33,198 nt of DNA, taken from Rhodobacteraceae bacterium CG17_big_fil_post_rev_8_21_14_2_50_63_15 (GTDB lineage: Bacteria > Pseudomonadota > Alphaproteobacteria > Rhodobacterales > Rhodobacteraceae). The stretch is taken from NCBI GenBank assembly GCA_002783205.1, contig PFEY01000083.1:22555-55752 (forward strand), given 5' to 3'. Within the stretch, counting starts at the first letter, position 1. Each line of letters starts with the position of its first letter. Below, one piece after another: positions 5,157 through 28,132 of this stretch. Below the pieces are notes generated by a model that did no database searches, was not told the DNA's origin, and saw only the letters and a list, made by a program, of their open reading frames with translations. The position numbers were made by a program, and so were the translations under genes.

Positions 5157-6272
5157 ATGCATACTGATATCCCGACCCGTCCCGAACTGGAGAACCTGAT
5201 CGCCATGCGCAGTCCGGCCGCCGTCAGCATTTATCTTGAAACCACACCGCTGACGCAGGACATCGGATCGGCGCGCACCGCGCTTGGCAACATGCTGAAA
5301 GAGGCCGTGGCGCAGCTCGAAGCCAACGACACGCCCAAACGCACGATCTGGCCGATCGAGGAACAGGTGGCTGACCTGCTCGACGATGACGCGTTCTGGG
5401 CGCATCAGTCCAATGCGCTGGCGCTTTTCGTCACCCCCGACAATCTGCGCAGCCATCGCCTGCCGAACCGGCTGAAATCGATGGTTCAGGTCTCCGACCG
5501 GTTTCATCTCAAGCCGCTGTGGCGGACGCTGTCGGTCAACCAGCACGCCTTTGTGCTGGCCTTGCAGGAAAACGAAGTGCGGCTGATCGAGGTCTTTGCC
5601 GATCTGCCGGCCGAGGAGATCCGGGTGCCCGACATGCCGCGCGACGGCGCCAGTGCGGCGGGCGTGGCCAATCTCAATTCGCGCAGCTATTCGGGCCGCA
5701 TCGGCGGCGCGGAGGGCCAGAAGGTGCTGCTGCGCGCCTTTGCCCGGCAGGTCGATGCGGCGCTGCGTCCGGTGCTGGCGGGGCGGCACGAACCGCTGAT
5801 CCTGGCCGGGGTGGACCCGCTCCTGCCGATCTACCGCTCGGTCAACAGCTATGACGGGCTGGCCGCCACATCCATCACCGGCAGTGCGACCCGCATGGAC
5901 GCCGCAGATCTGGCCGCAGCCGCCCGGCCCATACTTGACGGCTTGCAGGCCGAGGAAGTGGCGCGGCTCAACGCGCTCTATGCCACGCGCGAGGCCGAGG
6001 GGCGCGCCAGCACCCAGATCGCCCGCGCCGCCCGCGCCGCGACCTTTGGCGCGGTGGACACGCTGATGGTGGATATCGACGCAGTGGTGCCCGGAACGGT
6101 GGACGCGGCGGGCGAGATCAGCTTTGCCGAGACCGAGAGCGCGGCAAGCTATGGCGTGATCGACGAGATCGCAGCGCGTGTGGTGGGCGCGGGTGGGCGT
6201 GTGGTGGCGCTGCGCCGCGACGAGATCCCGCAGAACGAGGCGCTGGCGGTGATCCTGCGCTACGCGATCTGA
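5157..6272 (+). CDS. Bacterial archaeo-eukaryotic release factor-like protein (baeRF type), 371 aa
   Basis: This resembles the baeRF families, bacterial homologues of archaeal/eukaryotic peptide release factors (eRF1/aRF1/Pelota superfamily) proposed to act in ribosome rescue or quality control; no member is well characterised to my knowledge. Seen: an N-terminal domain from about 1-170 (VSIYLETTPLTQD near the start, the usual opening of these proteins); a middle region with SGRIGGAEGQKVLLRAFARQ, where a Gly-Gly...Gln loop precedes a long helix as the GGQ loop does in eRF1; and a C-terminal domain ending in VVALRRDEIP, which resembles the L7Ae-like domain's final strand. The start is the ATG at 5157, with a perfect AAGGAGG at 5141-5147. 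Its 3' end overlaps dusA tail to tail by 13 bases. Confidence 0.68.
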   Translation: MHTDIPTRPELENLIAMRSPAAVSIYLETTPLTQDIGSARTALGNMLKEAVAQLEANDTPKRTIWPIEEQVADLLDDDAFWAHQSNALALFVTPDNLRSHRLPNRLKSMVQVSDRFHLKPLWRTLSVNQHAFVLALQENEVRLIEVFADLPAEEIRVPDMPRDGASAAGVANLNSRSYSGRIGGAEGQKVLLRAFARQVDAALRPVLAGRHEPLILAGVDPLLPIYRSVNSYDGLAATSITGSATRMDAADLAAAARPILDGLQAEEVARLNALYATREAEGRASTQIARAARAATFGAVDTLMVDIDAVVPGTVDAAGEISFAETESAASYGVIDEIAARVVGAGGRVVALRRDEIPQNEALAVILRYAI

Positions 6273-7294
6273 CGCGGCACCGGGGCGGCGGGGGGCATCG
6301 GCTGGCTGGCTGCAACCTGCGCCAGCGCCGCCTCGACCAGTTCCGGCCCGGCCCCTTGCCGGGTCGCACCCTCCGACAGCATCCGTCGCCAGAGCCGCGC
6401 GCCGGGACGGCCCGCAAAGAGCCCCATCATGTGCCGGGTGATCTGATGCAGGTGGCCGCCTCCTGCCAGATGCGACTCGATATAAGGCAGCATGGCGCGC
6501 ACCGCGGCCTCGGGCGTGGTGTCGGGCGCGTCCGAGCCGAAGATCCGCCGGTCCGCCGCGCAGAGGATCTCTACCGGTTGATGATAGGCCGCGCGCCCCA
6601 CCATCACGCCGTCAAGGCCCGCAGCAAGAAACCCCTCGGCCTGATCGAGCGAGGTGATGCCGCCATTGATGCTGATGTCGAGCGCGGGGAACTGCGCCTT
6701 CATCCGCAGCACGAGACCGTAATCGAGCGGCGGGATCTCGCGGTTGTCCTTGGGCGAAAGCCCGTCGAGCCAGGCCTTGCGGGCATGGATGGCAAAGCGG
6801 CTGACACCCGCTGCCGCGACGCGCGTCAGAAAATCGGGCAGCACCGTCTCGGGATCCTGATGATCCACCCCGATACGGCATTTCACCGTCACTTCAACAG
6901 GTTGCGCGGCAATCATCGCAGCGCAGCACGCGGCCACAAGATCAGGATCCTTCATCAGCACCGCGCCAAACGTTCCCGATTGCACCCGGTCCGAGGGGCA
7001 ACCCACATTGAAATTGATCTCGGCATAGCCCGCCTGTGCCCCCAGCCGCGCCGCCTGCGCCAGTTCGCGCGGGTCCGAGCCGCCCAGTTGCAACGCCACG
7101 GGGTGCTCTGCGGGGGAATGATCGAGCAGGTGCAGCGCCCCGCCCCGCACCAGCGCGGGCGCCGTCACCATCTCTGTATAAAGCAGCGTCTGGCGACTCA
7201 GGTGCCGGTGCAGACTGCGGCAATGCCGATCGGTCCAATCCATCATGGGCGCACAAGATAGTCTCACTGCCTCGGTGGCTGCGTTTTTTGGCAT
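6260..7294 (-). CDS. dusA: tRNA-dihydrouridine synthase DusA, 344 aa
   Basis: FMN- and NADPH-dependent reductase of uridine to dihydrouridine in the tRNA D-loop; DusA enzymes act at U20/U20a. Seen: the N-terminal LSCAPMMDWTDRHCR, the TEMVTA block, NFNVGCPSDRVQSGTFG with the catalytic Cys99, VKCRIGVDHQD, the phosphate-binding SINGGITS and GVMVGRAAYHQP, and the C-terminal helical domain with HQITRHMMGLF. The HQITRHMMGLF block and overall length favour DusA over DusB or DusC. The start is the ATG at 7294 with GAGGAG about 9 bases upstream. It converges on the baeRF-like gene. Confidence 0.93.
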   Translation of the reverse strand: MPKNAATEAVRLSCAPMMDWTDRHCRSLHRHLSRQTLLYTEMVTAPALVRGGALHLLDHSPAEHPVALQLGGSDPRELAQAARLGAQAGYAEINFNVGCPSDRVQSGTFGAVLMKDPDLVAACCAAMIAAQPVEVTVKCRIGVDHQDPETVLPDFLTRVAAAGVSRFAIHARKAWLDGLSPKDNREIPPLDYGLVLRMKAQFPALDISINGGITSLDQAEGFLAAGLDGVMVGRAAYHQPVEILCAADRRIFGSDAPDTTPEAAVRAMLPYIESHLAGGGHLHQITRHMMGLFAGRPGARLWRRMLSEGATRQGAGPELVEAALAQVAASQPMPPAAPVPRQIA

Positions 7295-7462
7295 TCAGCG
7301 TTCTCCTCGTGTGCGCCCTCTAACGGAACGGACCCGCTGTGCACACCATACGCACACGGCGTCTGTCCTGCCACCCCACCCCGCGCAAAGACAGGAAGAC
7401 GGCGGCGTTTGGGTTGGGTTGGGTTGACTCGAAAAAGGGGGCATTGCTGAACCCTTCAGCTT

Positions 7463-7474
7463 CAACAAATGTTG
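7463..7474. promoter_or_regulatory. Inverted repeat ahead of parD, probable operator
   Basis: CAACAAATGTTG is an inverted repeat with 5-base arms and a 2-base spacer. It lies 32 bases upstream of the chosen parD start. ParD-type ribbon-helix-helix antitoxins usually repress their own operon through such short palindromes, so this is a candidate operator. No convincing -35/-10 pair could be placed around it. Confidence 0.4.
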
Positions 7475-7506
7475 TAATGTGGGGAATGATCGACTATCGT
7501 TTTGGC

Positions 7507-7773
7507 ATGCCCAGACTCTCGATCGACATCTCGCCGGAAGACCACCAGAAGCTCAAGGCCATCGCTGCTCTCAAAGGGCAGAGCATCAAGGACTATGTCT
7601 TGGGTCGGGCGCTTGGCGACACCCCTTCCGTTGCCGGGATGAGCGAGGACCAGGCTTTCATGGCGTTGGCCAACTTCCTGGAGCCTAGGATCGAGCAGGC
7701 GCGGCGCGGACAGCTTTCCAGAAAGTCCGTTGAGGAAATTCGGCGCGAAGAACGCAAGCGTGCTGGGGTCTGA
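7507..7773 (+). CDS. parD: ParD-like ribbon-helix-helix antitoxin, 88 aa
   Basis: Antitoxin of a type II system: binds its operator through an N-terminal ribbon-helix-helix domain and wraps the toxin with its C-terminal tail. Seen: MPRLSIDISPEDHQKLKAIA, a typical RHH strand and first helix, then GQSIKDYVLGRAL; the second half (FLEPRIEQARRGQLSRKSVEEIRREER) is the charged toxin-binding tail. The start is placed at the ATG at 7507 because homologous antitoxins begin with this strand. In-frame ATGs at 7477 and 7486 would add 10 and 7 residues, and GGGGA lies just before the latter, so a slightly longer form is possible. The toxin gene begins 8 bases after the stop. Confidence 0.85.
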   Translation: MPRLSIDISPEDHQKLKAIAALKGQSIKDYVLGRALGDTPSVAGMSEDQAFMALANFLEPRIEQARRGQLSRKSVEEIRREERKRAGV

Positions 7774-7781
7774 CCCGATCC

Positions 7782-8081
7782 ATGCCCGGCTATCAGATCA
7801 CCCTTGCCGAGGAGGAAGATCTTCGGGGCATCTGGCGGTATACGCTCGATACCTGGGGTCCCGATCAAGCTGACAATTACCTCGATCAGATCGAGGACTG
7901 CCTCGACGCTATCGGTGTCGGTCGGGTGCGCTCACAATCATTCCACAGATTGCCCGACGGGGTTTGCCTCCACCGGTGCCAGCGTCACTACATCTTCTGG
8001 ATAGTCATCGACCGCCCAATCATCATCGCGGTCCTGCACGAGAAGATGGATGTCGTGCAGAGGCTGGCAGACTGGATCTGA
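7782..8081 (+). CDS. parE: ParE/RelE superfamily toxin, 99 aa
   Basis: Toxin partner of the preceding antitoxin. ParE-type toxins poison DNA gyrase, while the related RelE toxins cut mRNA on the ribosome; sequence alone favours ParE. Seen: YQITLAEEEDLRGIWRYT (first strand and helix), QADNYLDQIEDCLDAI (second helix), RSQSFHRLPDGVCLHRC, YIFWIVIDRPIIIAVLHEKMD and the closing helix. Length and order (antitoxin first, 8-base gap) are normal for ParDE. The pair is the first element of an accessory block inserted between dusA and the SH3b gene. Confidence 0.85.
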   Translation: MPGYQITLAEEEDLRGIWRYTLDTWGPDQADNYLDQIEDCLDAIGVGRVRSQSFHRLPDGVCLHRCQRHYIFWIVIDRPIIIAVLHEKMDVVQRLADWI

Positions 8082-8381
8082 TGGCCTGACTTAGTGCTTA
8101 TGTTCCAGAGCCCAGCTATTCTTGCCCGTGTGGAGGCAAGTTGCCAAAAATGGTTGATTTGAACTGACTTCGTCAAACCATGAAACAGGGTGCAGCGATC
8201 TTACTGGACAAGAGAATATCATCGAACGGCCGGCGTTCCGATTTTTTGCATGTCGCACGCACGGAACGCACAGCTCCGGATACAGCGATAGGTGCAGAAT
8301 ACGATAAACGAACGATTAACTAGGGATTAACTGCATTGCGGCAACCTATCGAGGTTTTGAAAAACTGGCCTGAGGATCACC
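8082..8381. other. Non-coding stretch with a direct repeat
   Basis: No convincing gene is seen on either strand, and the base composition is more AT-rich than the neighbours. GATTAACT occurs twice as a direct repeat, at 8314-8321 and 8325-8332, 11 bases (about one helical turn) apart and some 50-70 bases ahead of the methyltransferase reading frame. This arrangement could be a regulator site for the methyltransferase/AlkB pair. No clear sigma-70 promoter could be fixed. Confidence 0.35.
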
Positions 8382-8444
8382 ATTTACGAATTTCGCGGCG
8401 CAACGCTTCAAGAGGCCATTCACCAGGCGCTCCGATATCCGGCG

Positions 8445-9062
8445 TTGTCGACAAAGAAGCTGGCCAAGGTGGCGGCGAAATTCGACTTCACCGCCCGCAT
8501 GCGCATGGGAAGCGTTCTGTTTGTAGGTGAAGGCAATCTGAGCTTTGCTCTGACGATGTCGCGCAAGCCGCGCGCTCCAACCTACTCGATCCTCGCGACA
8601 GTGTACGAGGCAGAGGAAGATCTGACGGACACCGCCTACGACAATGCGCGCCAGCTTCTGAAGCTAGGATGCAGCATCAAGACCCGCGTGGACGCGACAC
8701 GGCTGACTGATGCCATAGGGAAACGCCAGTTCCGAACGATCATCTTCCAGTTTCCAAACGTGGCCTCTCGTGATCCACGCTACGGACAAAACCCAAATCA
8801 TGTCTTGGTGACCCAGTTTCTCAAGAGCGCTCGGAACCACCTGAAACCGGGCGGCCTGGTCGTCATCTCGACAGTGGACAGCCCGTTTTACGAGGGCGCG
8901 TTCAAGATGGACGAGGCGGCGCGGAAGGCCGGGTTTGCGGCTCCGGCGATCTTCAGTTTCGACCCCGAAGACTACCCGGGATATACCCACCAGAACACGG
9001 ACAACGAGGAGTCTGCCACCGATGGCCACACCGCCTTCGCAACCTTCGTTTTTTCCGGATGA
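8445..9062 (+). CDS. BMT5-like (DUF2431) Rossmann-fold methyltransferase, 205 aa
   Basis: Related to yeast Bmt5, a SAM-dependent enzyme that methylates N3 of a uridine in 25S rRNA; the bacterial relatives have unknown substrates. Seen: VLFVGEGNLSFALTMSRK (SAM-binding motif I with the family's GEGN-SF signature), YEAEEDLTDTAYDNARQLL, the FQFPNVASRD block matching the family's F-FPH region, then NHVLVTQFLKSARNHLKPGG and VVISTVDSPFYE. The frame is given from a TTG at 8445, the first usual start codon, but it stays open back to 8361 and the added residues (TIYEFRGATLQEAIHQ) look coding. A GAGG at 8372-8375 sits 6 bases before an ATT at 8382, so the real start may be non-standard or mutated. The 3' end overlaps the AlkB gene by 41 bases. 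Confidence 0.75.
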   Translation: MSTKKLAKVAAKFDFTARMRMGSVLFVGEGNLSFALTMSRKPRAPTYSILATVYEAEEDLTDTAYDNARQLLKLGCSIKTRVDATRLTDAIGKRQFRTIIFQFPNVASRDPRYGQNPNHVLVTQFLKSARNHLKPGGLVVISTVDSPFYEGAFKMDEAARKAGFAAPAIFSFDPEDYPGYTHQNTDNEESATDGHTAFATFVFSG

Positions 9063-9717
9063 GTGGCCGGACGGGCTGACCTATCTGGCAAATTTCATCC
9101 ACGAGGATGAGGCCAAAAGGCTCGTCCGTGAGATCGACGCAGCCCCCTGGCGTCGCGATCTGAAGCGGCGGGTGCAGCATTACGGCTATCGTTACGACTA
9201 CAAAGCACGGCAAGCCCGGCGGGAAGACTATCTTGGGTCCCTGCCTGACCTGTTTCAGCACCTGGCGGAACGGTTGACCTCTGAAGGCCAATTTCAAGCC
9301 GTTCCGGATCAGGTCATCATCAATGAGTATCAGCCAGGACAGGGCATCTCTGCCCATATCGACTGCCTACCCTGCTTTGGGGAGACGATAGCATCCCTGA
9401 GCTTGCTCTCGGCATGCGTGATGCGGTTTGCCTCGCAGAAGTCTGCCCGGAAAATGGATCTTCTGCTCCAGCCCGACAGCCTTTTGGTTATGGCTGGTGA
9501 AGCCCGCCATGAGTGGACCCATGCTATTGCGGCCAGAAAGACGGATATTGTCGAAGGCCAGAAAGACGGATATTGTCGAAGGCCAGAAGTCCCAACGAAC
9601 GCGACGCATTTCGCTGACATTTCGGCAGATGAAATTCGAGAACTGAGTTTCGCCGTTTCGAACATGACGAACCGAAGAAAACGCGACGCAGCACGATATT
9701 GCGCGATCAAAACATGA
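9022..9717 (+). CDS. AlkB-family 2-oxoglutarate dioxygenase with a frame-shifted C-terminus
   Basis: AlkB-family enzymes remove methyl groups from bases in DNA or RNA using Fe(II) and 2-oxoglutarate. Seen: YLANFIHEDEAKRLV near the start, VQHYGYRYDY at about 51-60, the NEYQPGQGISAHID block with iron ligands His112 and Asp114, and EARHEWTHAIAARKTD with the third ligand, probably His167. After residue 180 the present frame runs into unrelated sequence (DGYCRRPEVPTNATHF...). A 25-bp tandem duplication at 9531-9580 causes this. Removing one copy restores VEGQKSQRTRRISLTFRQMK and a stop at 9646, with the family's R-x5-R 2-oxoglutarate-binding motif. The current product (231 aa) is therefore probably inactive unless the repeat contracts. 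The ATG at 9022 overlaps the methyltransferase gene by 41 bases. Confidence 0.85.
   Translation: MATPPSQPSFFPDEWPDGLTYLANFIHEDEAKRLVREIDAAPWRRDLKRRVQHYGYRYDYKARQARREDYLGSLPDLFQHLAERLTSEGQFQAVPDQVIINEYQPGQGISAHIDCLPCFGETIASLSLLSACVMRFASQKSARKMDLLLQPDSLLVMAGEARHEWTHAIAARKTDIVEGQKDGYCRRPEVPTNATHFADISADEIRELSFAVSNMTNRRKRDAARYCAIKT
9531..9588. repeat. Perfect 25-bp tandem duplication inside the AlkB gene
   Basis: Positions 9531-9555 and 9556-9580 are identical, and both begin with GGCCAGAA; the same 8 bases appear a third time at 9581-9588. The 25-bp length shifts the frame by one. Before duplication the gene would have had GGCCAGAA twice, 25 bases apart, which is the geometry for replication slippage and also for its reversal. 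It may equally be a fixed inactivating mutation or, less likely, an assembly error. Confidence 0.95.
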
Positions 9718-10213
9718 ACATGTGCTGCACACTTATCCACCCAAACCATTGAAATATATGTTTAATCCCCACCATCCATCATCGGGGCAACGGCTAGTCT
9801 ATGTGATTGATTTTCCGTCATTTCCTAAGCATTTTTTCACAGTGACAACGGCGGATCTGGCGGACGCTGACCTCCGGCGCAGGATCGCTGGGCTTGCTCC
9901 TCGGGGGGCCCTGTCACACACGCGGCCCCACGTAAAGGCGGCTCATGCGAGAGAGAGCGTGTTGCGGCGCGGCGAGGCCCATCCCGGGGCTGCCGATCCG
10001 AGACTGCGGTCGATCACGGGGCAACGCCGGGATGTGCGTTCGGCGCGCGCCTGCTGAGCTATGGCGGTTTCGTTGATCTTGACATAGCCGATAACGGCGC
10101 AGGAGGCAAACCGCCGTGCTGTCGCCCTGATGGGGAACGATATCTTCACGCAGGCCACCTCTGCGTGCTATACAAAATTGTTGCATTTCAGCGGGCTTTA
10201 ACTTGGAGGACGC
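9718..10213. other. Stretch of about 500 bases without a recognisable gene
   Basis: Short open frames exist on both strands (for example 9722-10057 plus and 9943-10158 minus), but none shows a known domain, a good ribosome binding site or codon use like the neighbours. The left part (9718-9850) is AT-rich and lies just past the AlkB gene. It marks the right edge of the accessory block. The right end holds the promoter of the SH3b gene. Confidence 0.4.
10145..10174 (+). promoter_or_regulatory. Candidate sigma-70 promoter of the SH3b gene
   Basis: TTCACG (10145-10150) and TATACA (10169-10174) are separated by 18 bases, and TGC precedes the -10 element. Transcription would begin near 10181, about 33 bases before the ATG, which has GGAGG in front of it. 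It was judged by eye only. Confidence 0.4.
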
Positions 10214-28087: not shown

Positions 28088-28132
28088 CCCTGTGTTTTCG
28101 TTCCCTGTGTTTTCGTTCCCTGTGTTTTCGAT
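28088..28132. repeat. Three tandem 15-bp repeats in the leader of the binding-protein gene
   Basis: CCCTGTGTTTTCGTT occurs three times head to tail (28088-28102, 28103-28117, 28118-28132; the last copy ends in AT). TGTTTTCG in each copy recurs as TGCTTTCG at 28138-28145, 17 bases on. The array lies between the predicted promoter and the start codon. It may be a binding array for the divergent DeoR regulator, or a variable-number repeat. Confidence 0.85.

Follow-up and report, generated by a model that had tools for sequence, protein, structure and literature searches.

A perfect 25-bp tandem duplication breaks the reading frame of an ALKBH8-like AlkB gene in the window, the stretch of 33,198 nucleotides that was analysed (Table 1). 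The reading that we prefer, with a probability of roughly 0.77, is that a slippage duplication within alkB, carried by a small dusA-integrated element, has left a dioxygenase that is most likely dead, and that the methyltransferase–AlkB pair is decaying accessory cargo. One replication-slippage event between two GGCCAGAA copies lying 25 bp apart would have duplicated 25 bp in alkB. The resulting +1 shift would replace the conserved C-terminal strand that bears R-x5-R with an unrelated 50-residue tail, and without R-x5-R the dioxygenase should not hold 2-oxoglutarate. The host of the dusA-integrated element would be a Roseovarius-type marine bacterium, in which alkB is presumably accessory cargo and the pair appears to be decaying in this copy.

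Table 1 Features of the window discussed in the text
Feature	Position	Strand	Remarks
dusA (PF01207)	6260..7294	-	N-terminus now MPKNAATEAVRLSCAPMMDWTD; present 5' end appears supplied by the element
Left attachment-like site CCATCATGGGCGCACAAGATAGTC (CCATCATGGGCGCA at 7240)	7240..7263	.	Inside dusA
ParD antitoxin gene (PF09386)	7507..7773	+	Element cargo; start codon inferred from relatives
ParE toxin gene (PF05016)	7782..8081	+	Element cargo
BMT5-like methyltransferase gene (PF10354)	8382..9062	+	PF10354 at 103.5 bits; overlaps alkB by 41 bp
ALKBH8-like AlkB gene	9022..9717	+	Open frame now 231 aa; residues from 182 on out of frame
First 25-bp unit	9531..9555	+	Ancestral AlkB frame
Second 25-bp unit	9556..9580	+	Frame shift +1; the added copy could be either unit; 25-base gap in six relative rows
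Ancestral C-terminal coding stretch, R-x5-R (RISLTFR) and stop	9557..9646	+	Now in the other frame
GGCCAGAA, third partial copy, 8 bp	9581..9588	+	Presumed ancestral microhomology, paired with a unit's first 8 bases
Displaced original dusA 5' end MTENQSHRLAVAPMMD	9774..9821	-	Past the right border
Right attachment-like site CCATCATCGGGGCAACGGCTAGTC (CCATCATCGGGGCA at 9776)	9776..9799	.

Tandem duplication and the AlkB reading frame

The repeat described in the initial annotation, two identical 25-bp units and a third copy of their first 8 bases, was confirmed in the assembly (period 25, 2.3 copies, 100% matches, score 116). Across the 3,336,998 bases of the assembly (94.5% complete), two copies of the 25-mer were found, both at 9531-9580, and the reversed 25-mer, used as a control, gave no match in the same assembly. 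The frame-breaking duplication is confirmed at assembly level. Four perfect tandem duplications in the window have units of at least 10 bp, and the 25-bp unit alone is not a multiple of three, the other three being 12, 12, and 15 bp long. Ten mononucleotide shuffles of the window contained no tandem duplication with a unit of 10–59 bp. Elsewhere in the window, at 28088-28130, a perfect 15-bp tandem repeat (2.87 copies) lies close to the 5' end of the open frame in an OpuAC-type binding-protein gene.

The frame at 9022-9717 reads ARKTDIVEGQK, after which the tail is unrelated, and ARKTDIVEGQKSQRTRRISLTFRQMKFEN is encoded in the other frame, starting from the second unit. As the initial annotation had it, the duplication takes alkB out of frame, and R-x5-R (RISLTFR) belongs to the lost end. 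The break had been placed after residue 180; the loss of frame stands, but the exact point does not, since divergence from relatives begins at residue 182. The match to PF13532 (2OG-Fe(II) oxygenase) stops at profile position 177/194 in the window AlkB (78.9 bits) and reaches 194/194 in L021, L020, L025, and pTB4 (91.4–99.8 bits).

The H-x-D...H iron ligands H112, D114, and H167 are all present in the window AlkB. Among the rows from the best 80 of 213 loci, the first two are H and D in 83/83, and H167 is conserved in 81/81 that reach it. All 18 aligned sequences from other loci have R187 and R193; an in-frame R-x5-R motif near the C-terminus was not found in the window AlkB, which has an R at position 187 by chance and no R193. 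We take H112/D114/H167 and the R-x5-R pair to be the residues that bind iron and 2-oxoglutarate. An alignment legend in PMC4051686 assigns HXDXnH to Fe(II) coordination and calls RX5R characteristic of the family.

Human ALKBH8 was the best solved relative of the orthologue L021, both by sequence (3thp, E 7.3e-31) and by fold (3thp/3tht at the top), the L021 AlkB model having a mean pLDDT of 88.8. AlphaFold2, run with an alignment on the present 231-aa frame, modelled a strand at 187-195 (pLDDT 78–88 there; mean 80.8, five models 61–81). This model is uninformative on a collapse of the protein because the alignment imposes the strand and the fold. Judged from sequence, the window AlkB is most likely dead, and its activity would have been lost.

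Comparison with related genes

A genome_contigs scan found 213 relatives, and the best 80 of the 213 loci were used, giving 83 AlkB rows, 80 of which cover the duplication site. The rows short of the site were L024 (its contig ends in the site), L033, and L036. A 25-base gap at the duplication site is seen in six relative rows (L019, L020, L021, both L022 copies, and L023); L025 and L027 each total 25 gap bases relative to the window. Within the best 80 of 213 loci, 0/80 site-covering rows had a tandem duplication with a unit of at least 10 bp in alkB, and a RISLTFR-type R-x5-R was in frame in 77/80. The covering rows without the strict motif were L077, which is in frame with the first R changed to K, and L066 and L090, which are 52–56% identical, with an end that is different or broken and no duplication. 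Homologues sharing the present C-terminus, which would have told against a frame loss, were looked for in the same best 80 of 213 loci and found in 0/80 site-covering rows. As far as sequence comparison goes, the duplication is supported as the derived state.

Thirteen rows from family-level loci and pTB4 overlap the 80 loci (L101 and L020, for example, are the same gene) and cannot be counted as independent; two of them come from the window itself (L103 and L129), L106 stops before the site, and the other 10 carry the motif in frame. At family level, matches were obtained in 25 of 394 genomes, the majority of them weak; an overlapping double match at the site was seen in the window's own genome only. 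One of two partial matches in G199 is interrupted by a stop, and the match in G156 is in two pieces. The genus is probably Roseovarius, as matches in its genomes fall at positions identical to those in named Roseovarius records (G033 with L019 and G019 with L027, for example). Within the genus, alkB was matched in 10/84 genomes, with no match in 74/84. Seven of the nine other matching genomes have the motif in frame; the G053 contig ends before the motif, and the G073 match is a fragment. The exact duplication-junction sequence gave 0 matches in viral_contigs. The alkB of Roseovarius sp. EGI FJ00037 (L019:6001-6861) retains RISLTFR; its stop has been lost, apparently through fusion with the ParD module, and its frame measures 286 aa rather than 199.

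The methyltransferase partner

The methyltransferase gene that overlaps alkB starts at 8382-8384 with ATT in the window versus ATG in 6/6 relative rows, and the next usual start is TTG at 8445. ATT can act as a weak start codon. In the rest of the gene, 9 silent and 8 changing substitutions (start included) were placed on the window branch, and the L021 branch received 8 of each, so the methyltransferase shows no sign of faster change than that of L021. Two lesions in one operon, the alkB frameshift and the ATT start, suggest that this copy of the pair is decaying.

In 36/80 rows from the best 80 of 213 loci (83 rows minus 3 with too little upstream DNA), mostly labelled Alphaproteobacteria, a methyltransferase relative ends at most 400 bp upstream of alkB; the count comes from BLAST only and is probably a lower bound for PF10354. 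Three distant methyltransferase relatives that were checked match PF10354 at 113–117 bits. In the genus, the 8 genomes with PF10354 are all among the 10 with alkB. No solved structure related to the methyltransferase by sequence was found. In L025, L028, L036, and pTB4, another ORF upstream of alkB replaces the methyltransferase, and a Pfam scan of the pTB4 replacement ORF gave no match. The replacement ORF is conserved (L025:5496-5987, L028:2717-3208, L036:3331-3828, and L130:520-981); it is preceded by a Phage_Mu_F-like gene in L025 and L036 and by a similar ORF in L028.

We hypothesise that the BMT5-like methyltransferase and the ALKBH8-like AlkB may be writer and eraser on one RNA base. 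That the two form a mobile pair in which the methyltransferase marks an RNA uridine, the dioxygenase erases the mark, and slippage flips the eraser among cells with the dusA element is, in our view, very unlikely. Excerpts of PMC4051686 describe bacterial ALKBH8-like members without fused RRM, ZnF, and MTase domains, including a studied member from Roseobacter denitrificans. The window gene resembles these in that human ALKBH8 is the best solved relative of its orthologue L021; it differs in that the window copy is without the second R of R-x5-R, and in that a separate BMT5-like methyltransferase gene lies upstream in the window and in many relatives. According to the same excerpts, tRNA-Gly(UCC) modification was unaltered in an Agrobacterium ALKBH8 mutant, which showed no raised sensitivity to alkylating agents, the Rhizobium etli protein is cited as repairing etheno adducts, and uncoupled activity of the R. 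denitrificans protein was not detected, a result that its authors called inconclusive. The recurrent BMT5-like partner leads to a testable substrate hypothesis for the cellular role of bacterial ALKBH8-like proteins; the methyltransferase–alkB surroundings may matter more than the duplication. A literature search returned nothing evident on an ALKBH8–methyltransferase gene neighbourhood. A known defence system seems unlikely, with no more than weak matches in PADLOC (CARF_2OG, 23.4 bits; mad2, 28.4 bits).

Origin and age of the duplication

The ancestral GGCCAGAA pair at 25-bp distance that had been postulated is visible in single-unit close relatives: at 25-bp spacing, a run of 8 bp is present in L021, one of the two L022 copies, and L025, and one of 7 bp in L019 and L020. 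The pair derives from conserved codons in two frames (A-R-K and G-Q-K). A run at this spacing is the signature expected of slippage, which we infer to be the mechanism. Among the best 80 of 213 loci, microhomology at 25 bp was at least 7 bp (7–8 bp) in just 5/80 covering rows, all close relatives, and at most 6 bp in the other 75, which rules out a family-wide slippage hotspot. L037 has an 8-bp run at a spacing of 23.

Excerpts of PMC3411829 report that, in Salmonella cultures, short direct repeats lay at the ends of all confirmed spontaneous deletions and duplications. The window duplication is alike in having a short direct repeat at both ends of one duplicated unit, although that source concerns chromosomal rearrangements generally and not 25-bp events. 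Compared with an ordinary slippage frameshift, its sole unusual point is the 8-bp repeat formed from conserved codons in two frames. As a slippage frameshift, the alkB duplication is ordinary; mixed one-/two-unit populations, if true, would make it matter. Phase-variable contingency loci switch frame by slipped-strand mispairing in a many-unit repeat that lies in the coding frame and has a unit that is not a multiple of three. The window repeat is likewise in a coding frame with such a unit (25 bp, 2.3 copies), but it has two units, an 8-bp seed, and no length variants in related genomes (best 80 of 213 loci). The literature search found no paper combining AlkB, frameshift, and phase variable.

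The 90-nt C-terminal stretch shows 0 differences from L021, and 24/537 nt differ in codons 1-179. The event looks young because the two units are identical and this stretch equals that of L021; either the duplication would be young or the C-terminal end would have been under selection until recently. The contrast between the unchanged 90 nt and the 24/537 nt elsewhere speaks against decay, as if the end were still constrained, but a very recent event fits it too. Codons 1-179 of alkB gained 9 amino-acid-changing substitutions (in 8 codons, two in one) versus 3 silent on the window branch, and 4 versus 2 on the L021 branch. With a neutral site ratio of ~3.2 (about 410 and 127 sites), the window-branch ratio of 9:3 is near neutral, with counts too small to test. 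We infer a lack of selection to keep alkB.

Alternative explanations

The initial annotation had proposed that the gene could be reversibly on or off among cells, or recently lost, and of these the recent loss was favoured by the second lesion and the patchy occurrence. In a reversible switch, the overlapping 33-bp direct repeat would lose and regain a unit so frequently that AlkB-on and AlkB-off cells are mixed in the population. The repeat geometry would allow this, and the microhomology retained in L021, one L022 copy, and L025 as well as the C-terminal stretch identical to that of L021 fit it. A switch is mechanically possible; it is nevertheless unsupported, and we consider it unlikely. 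Two units were seen in 0/80 covering rows of the best 80 of 213 loci, a comparison between species, and the junction was without a match in viral_contigs. Microhomology of at least 7 bp at 25-bp spacing is limited to a close clade (5/80 rows of the same best 80 of 213 loci), the one-unit state leaves an 8-bp repeat only, unlike many-unit contingency loci, and there is a second lesion in the overlapping methyltransferase gene. Decay of a dispensable gene is favoured because there are two lesions in one operon, 0 other two-unit genomes, and a patchy distribution (10/84 genus genomes).

We give little credence to an assembly or sequencing artefact, in which the cell would have one unit and a working gene. 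The genome is a draft in 114 contigs, and a frameshift reported in another dusA island was a sequencing error, as stated in an excerpt of PMC4482086; however, the 58-bp repeat span is one that ordinary short reads can cross, the extra unit is bounded by microhomology that a random join would not need, and the methyltransferase start lesion is independent. Of 20 other window frames scanned, 17 had Pfam matches and read through, which is weak evidence of a clean assembly. It is extremely unlikely that the 231-aa protein is a genuine variant with a working C-terminus. Its frame is open for 50 codons and the strand at 187-195 was modelled, with a fold imposed by the alignment, but the tail lacks R193, is shared by no homologue examined, and is an out-of-frame reading of the relatives' RISLTFR DNA followed by DNA past their stop codon.

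The dusA-integrated element and its mobility

The stretch from 7240 to 9776 is a 2.5-kb element in the dusA 5' end, with genes for ParD, ParE, the methyltransferase, and AlkB. As in dusA islands, it is inserted at the dusA 5' end and flanked by imperfect direct repeats, and the dusA start is displaced; no integrase gene was present between 7240 and 9776. Mobilisation of the element in trans may be possible, as the genome has six PF00589 matches, all on other contigs. Excerpts of PMC4482086 describe 94 dusA-specific islands, all with an integrase and the smallest of 4,758 bp, collected by an integrase search. The window element is like these islands in its site of insertion, its imperfect direct repeats, and the supply of a new dusA 5' end with the old one at the far border, and unlike them in its size of 2.5 kb and the lack of an integrase. 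Integrase-less islands are absent from that described set because it was collected by searching for integrases.

L022 has similar elements arranged head to tail, and in L020, L025, and L027 the right border is followed by dusA-type starts. An empty dusA with the same right flank was not found among 82 other genus genomes, which gave 5 short weak matches. A phage origin of the element was rejected, with no match among 50,697 phage records. Four plasmid records match parts of the element, including pTB4 of Roseobacter denitrificans (alkB at 80%). L033 and L029, both ~4.6 kb with RepA (PF10134) and alkB, have exact terminal overlaps of 127 and 77 bp (16 contigs tested) and are probably circular plasmids. 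The attachment-like borders in dusA, the related elements in relatives, and the plasmid-borne copies indicate that alkB is mobile cargo. Together with L130, L033 and L029 make up a group of circular or probably circular RepA plasmids of 4.6–5.8 kb with alkB, and L033 also carries the methyltransferase.
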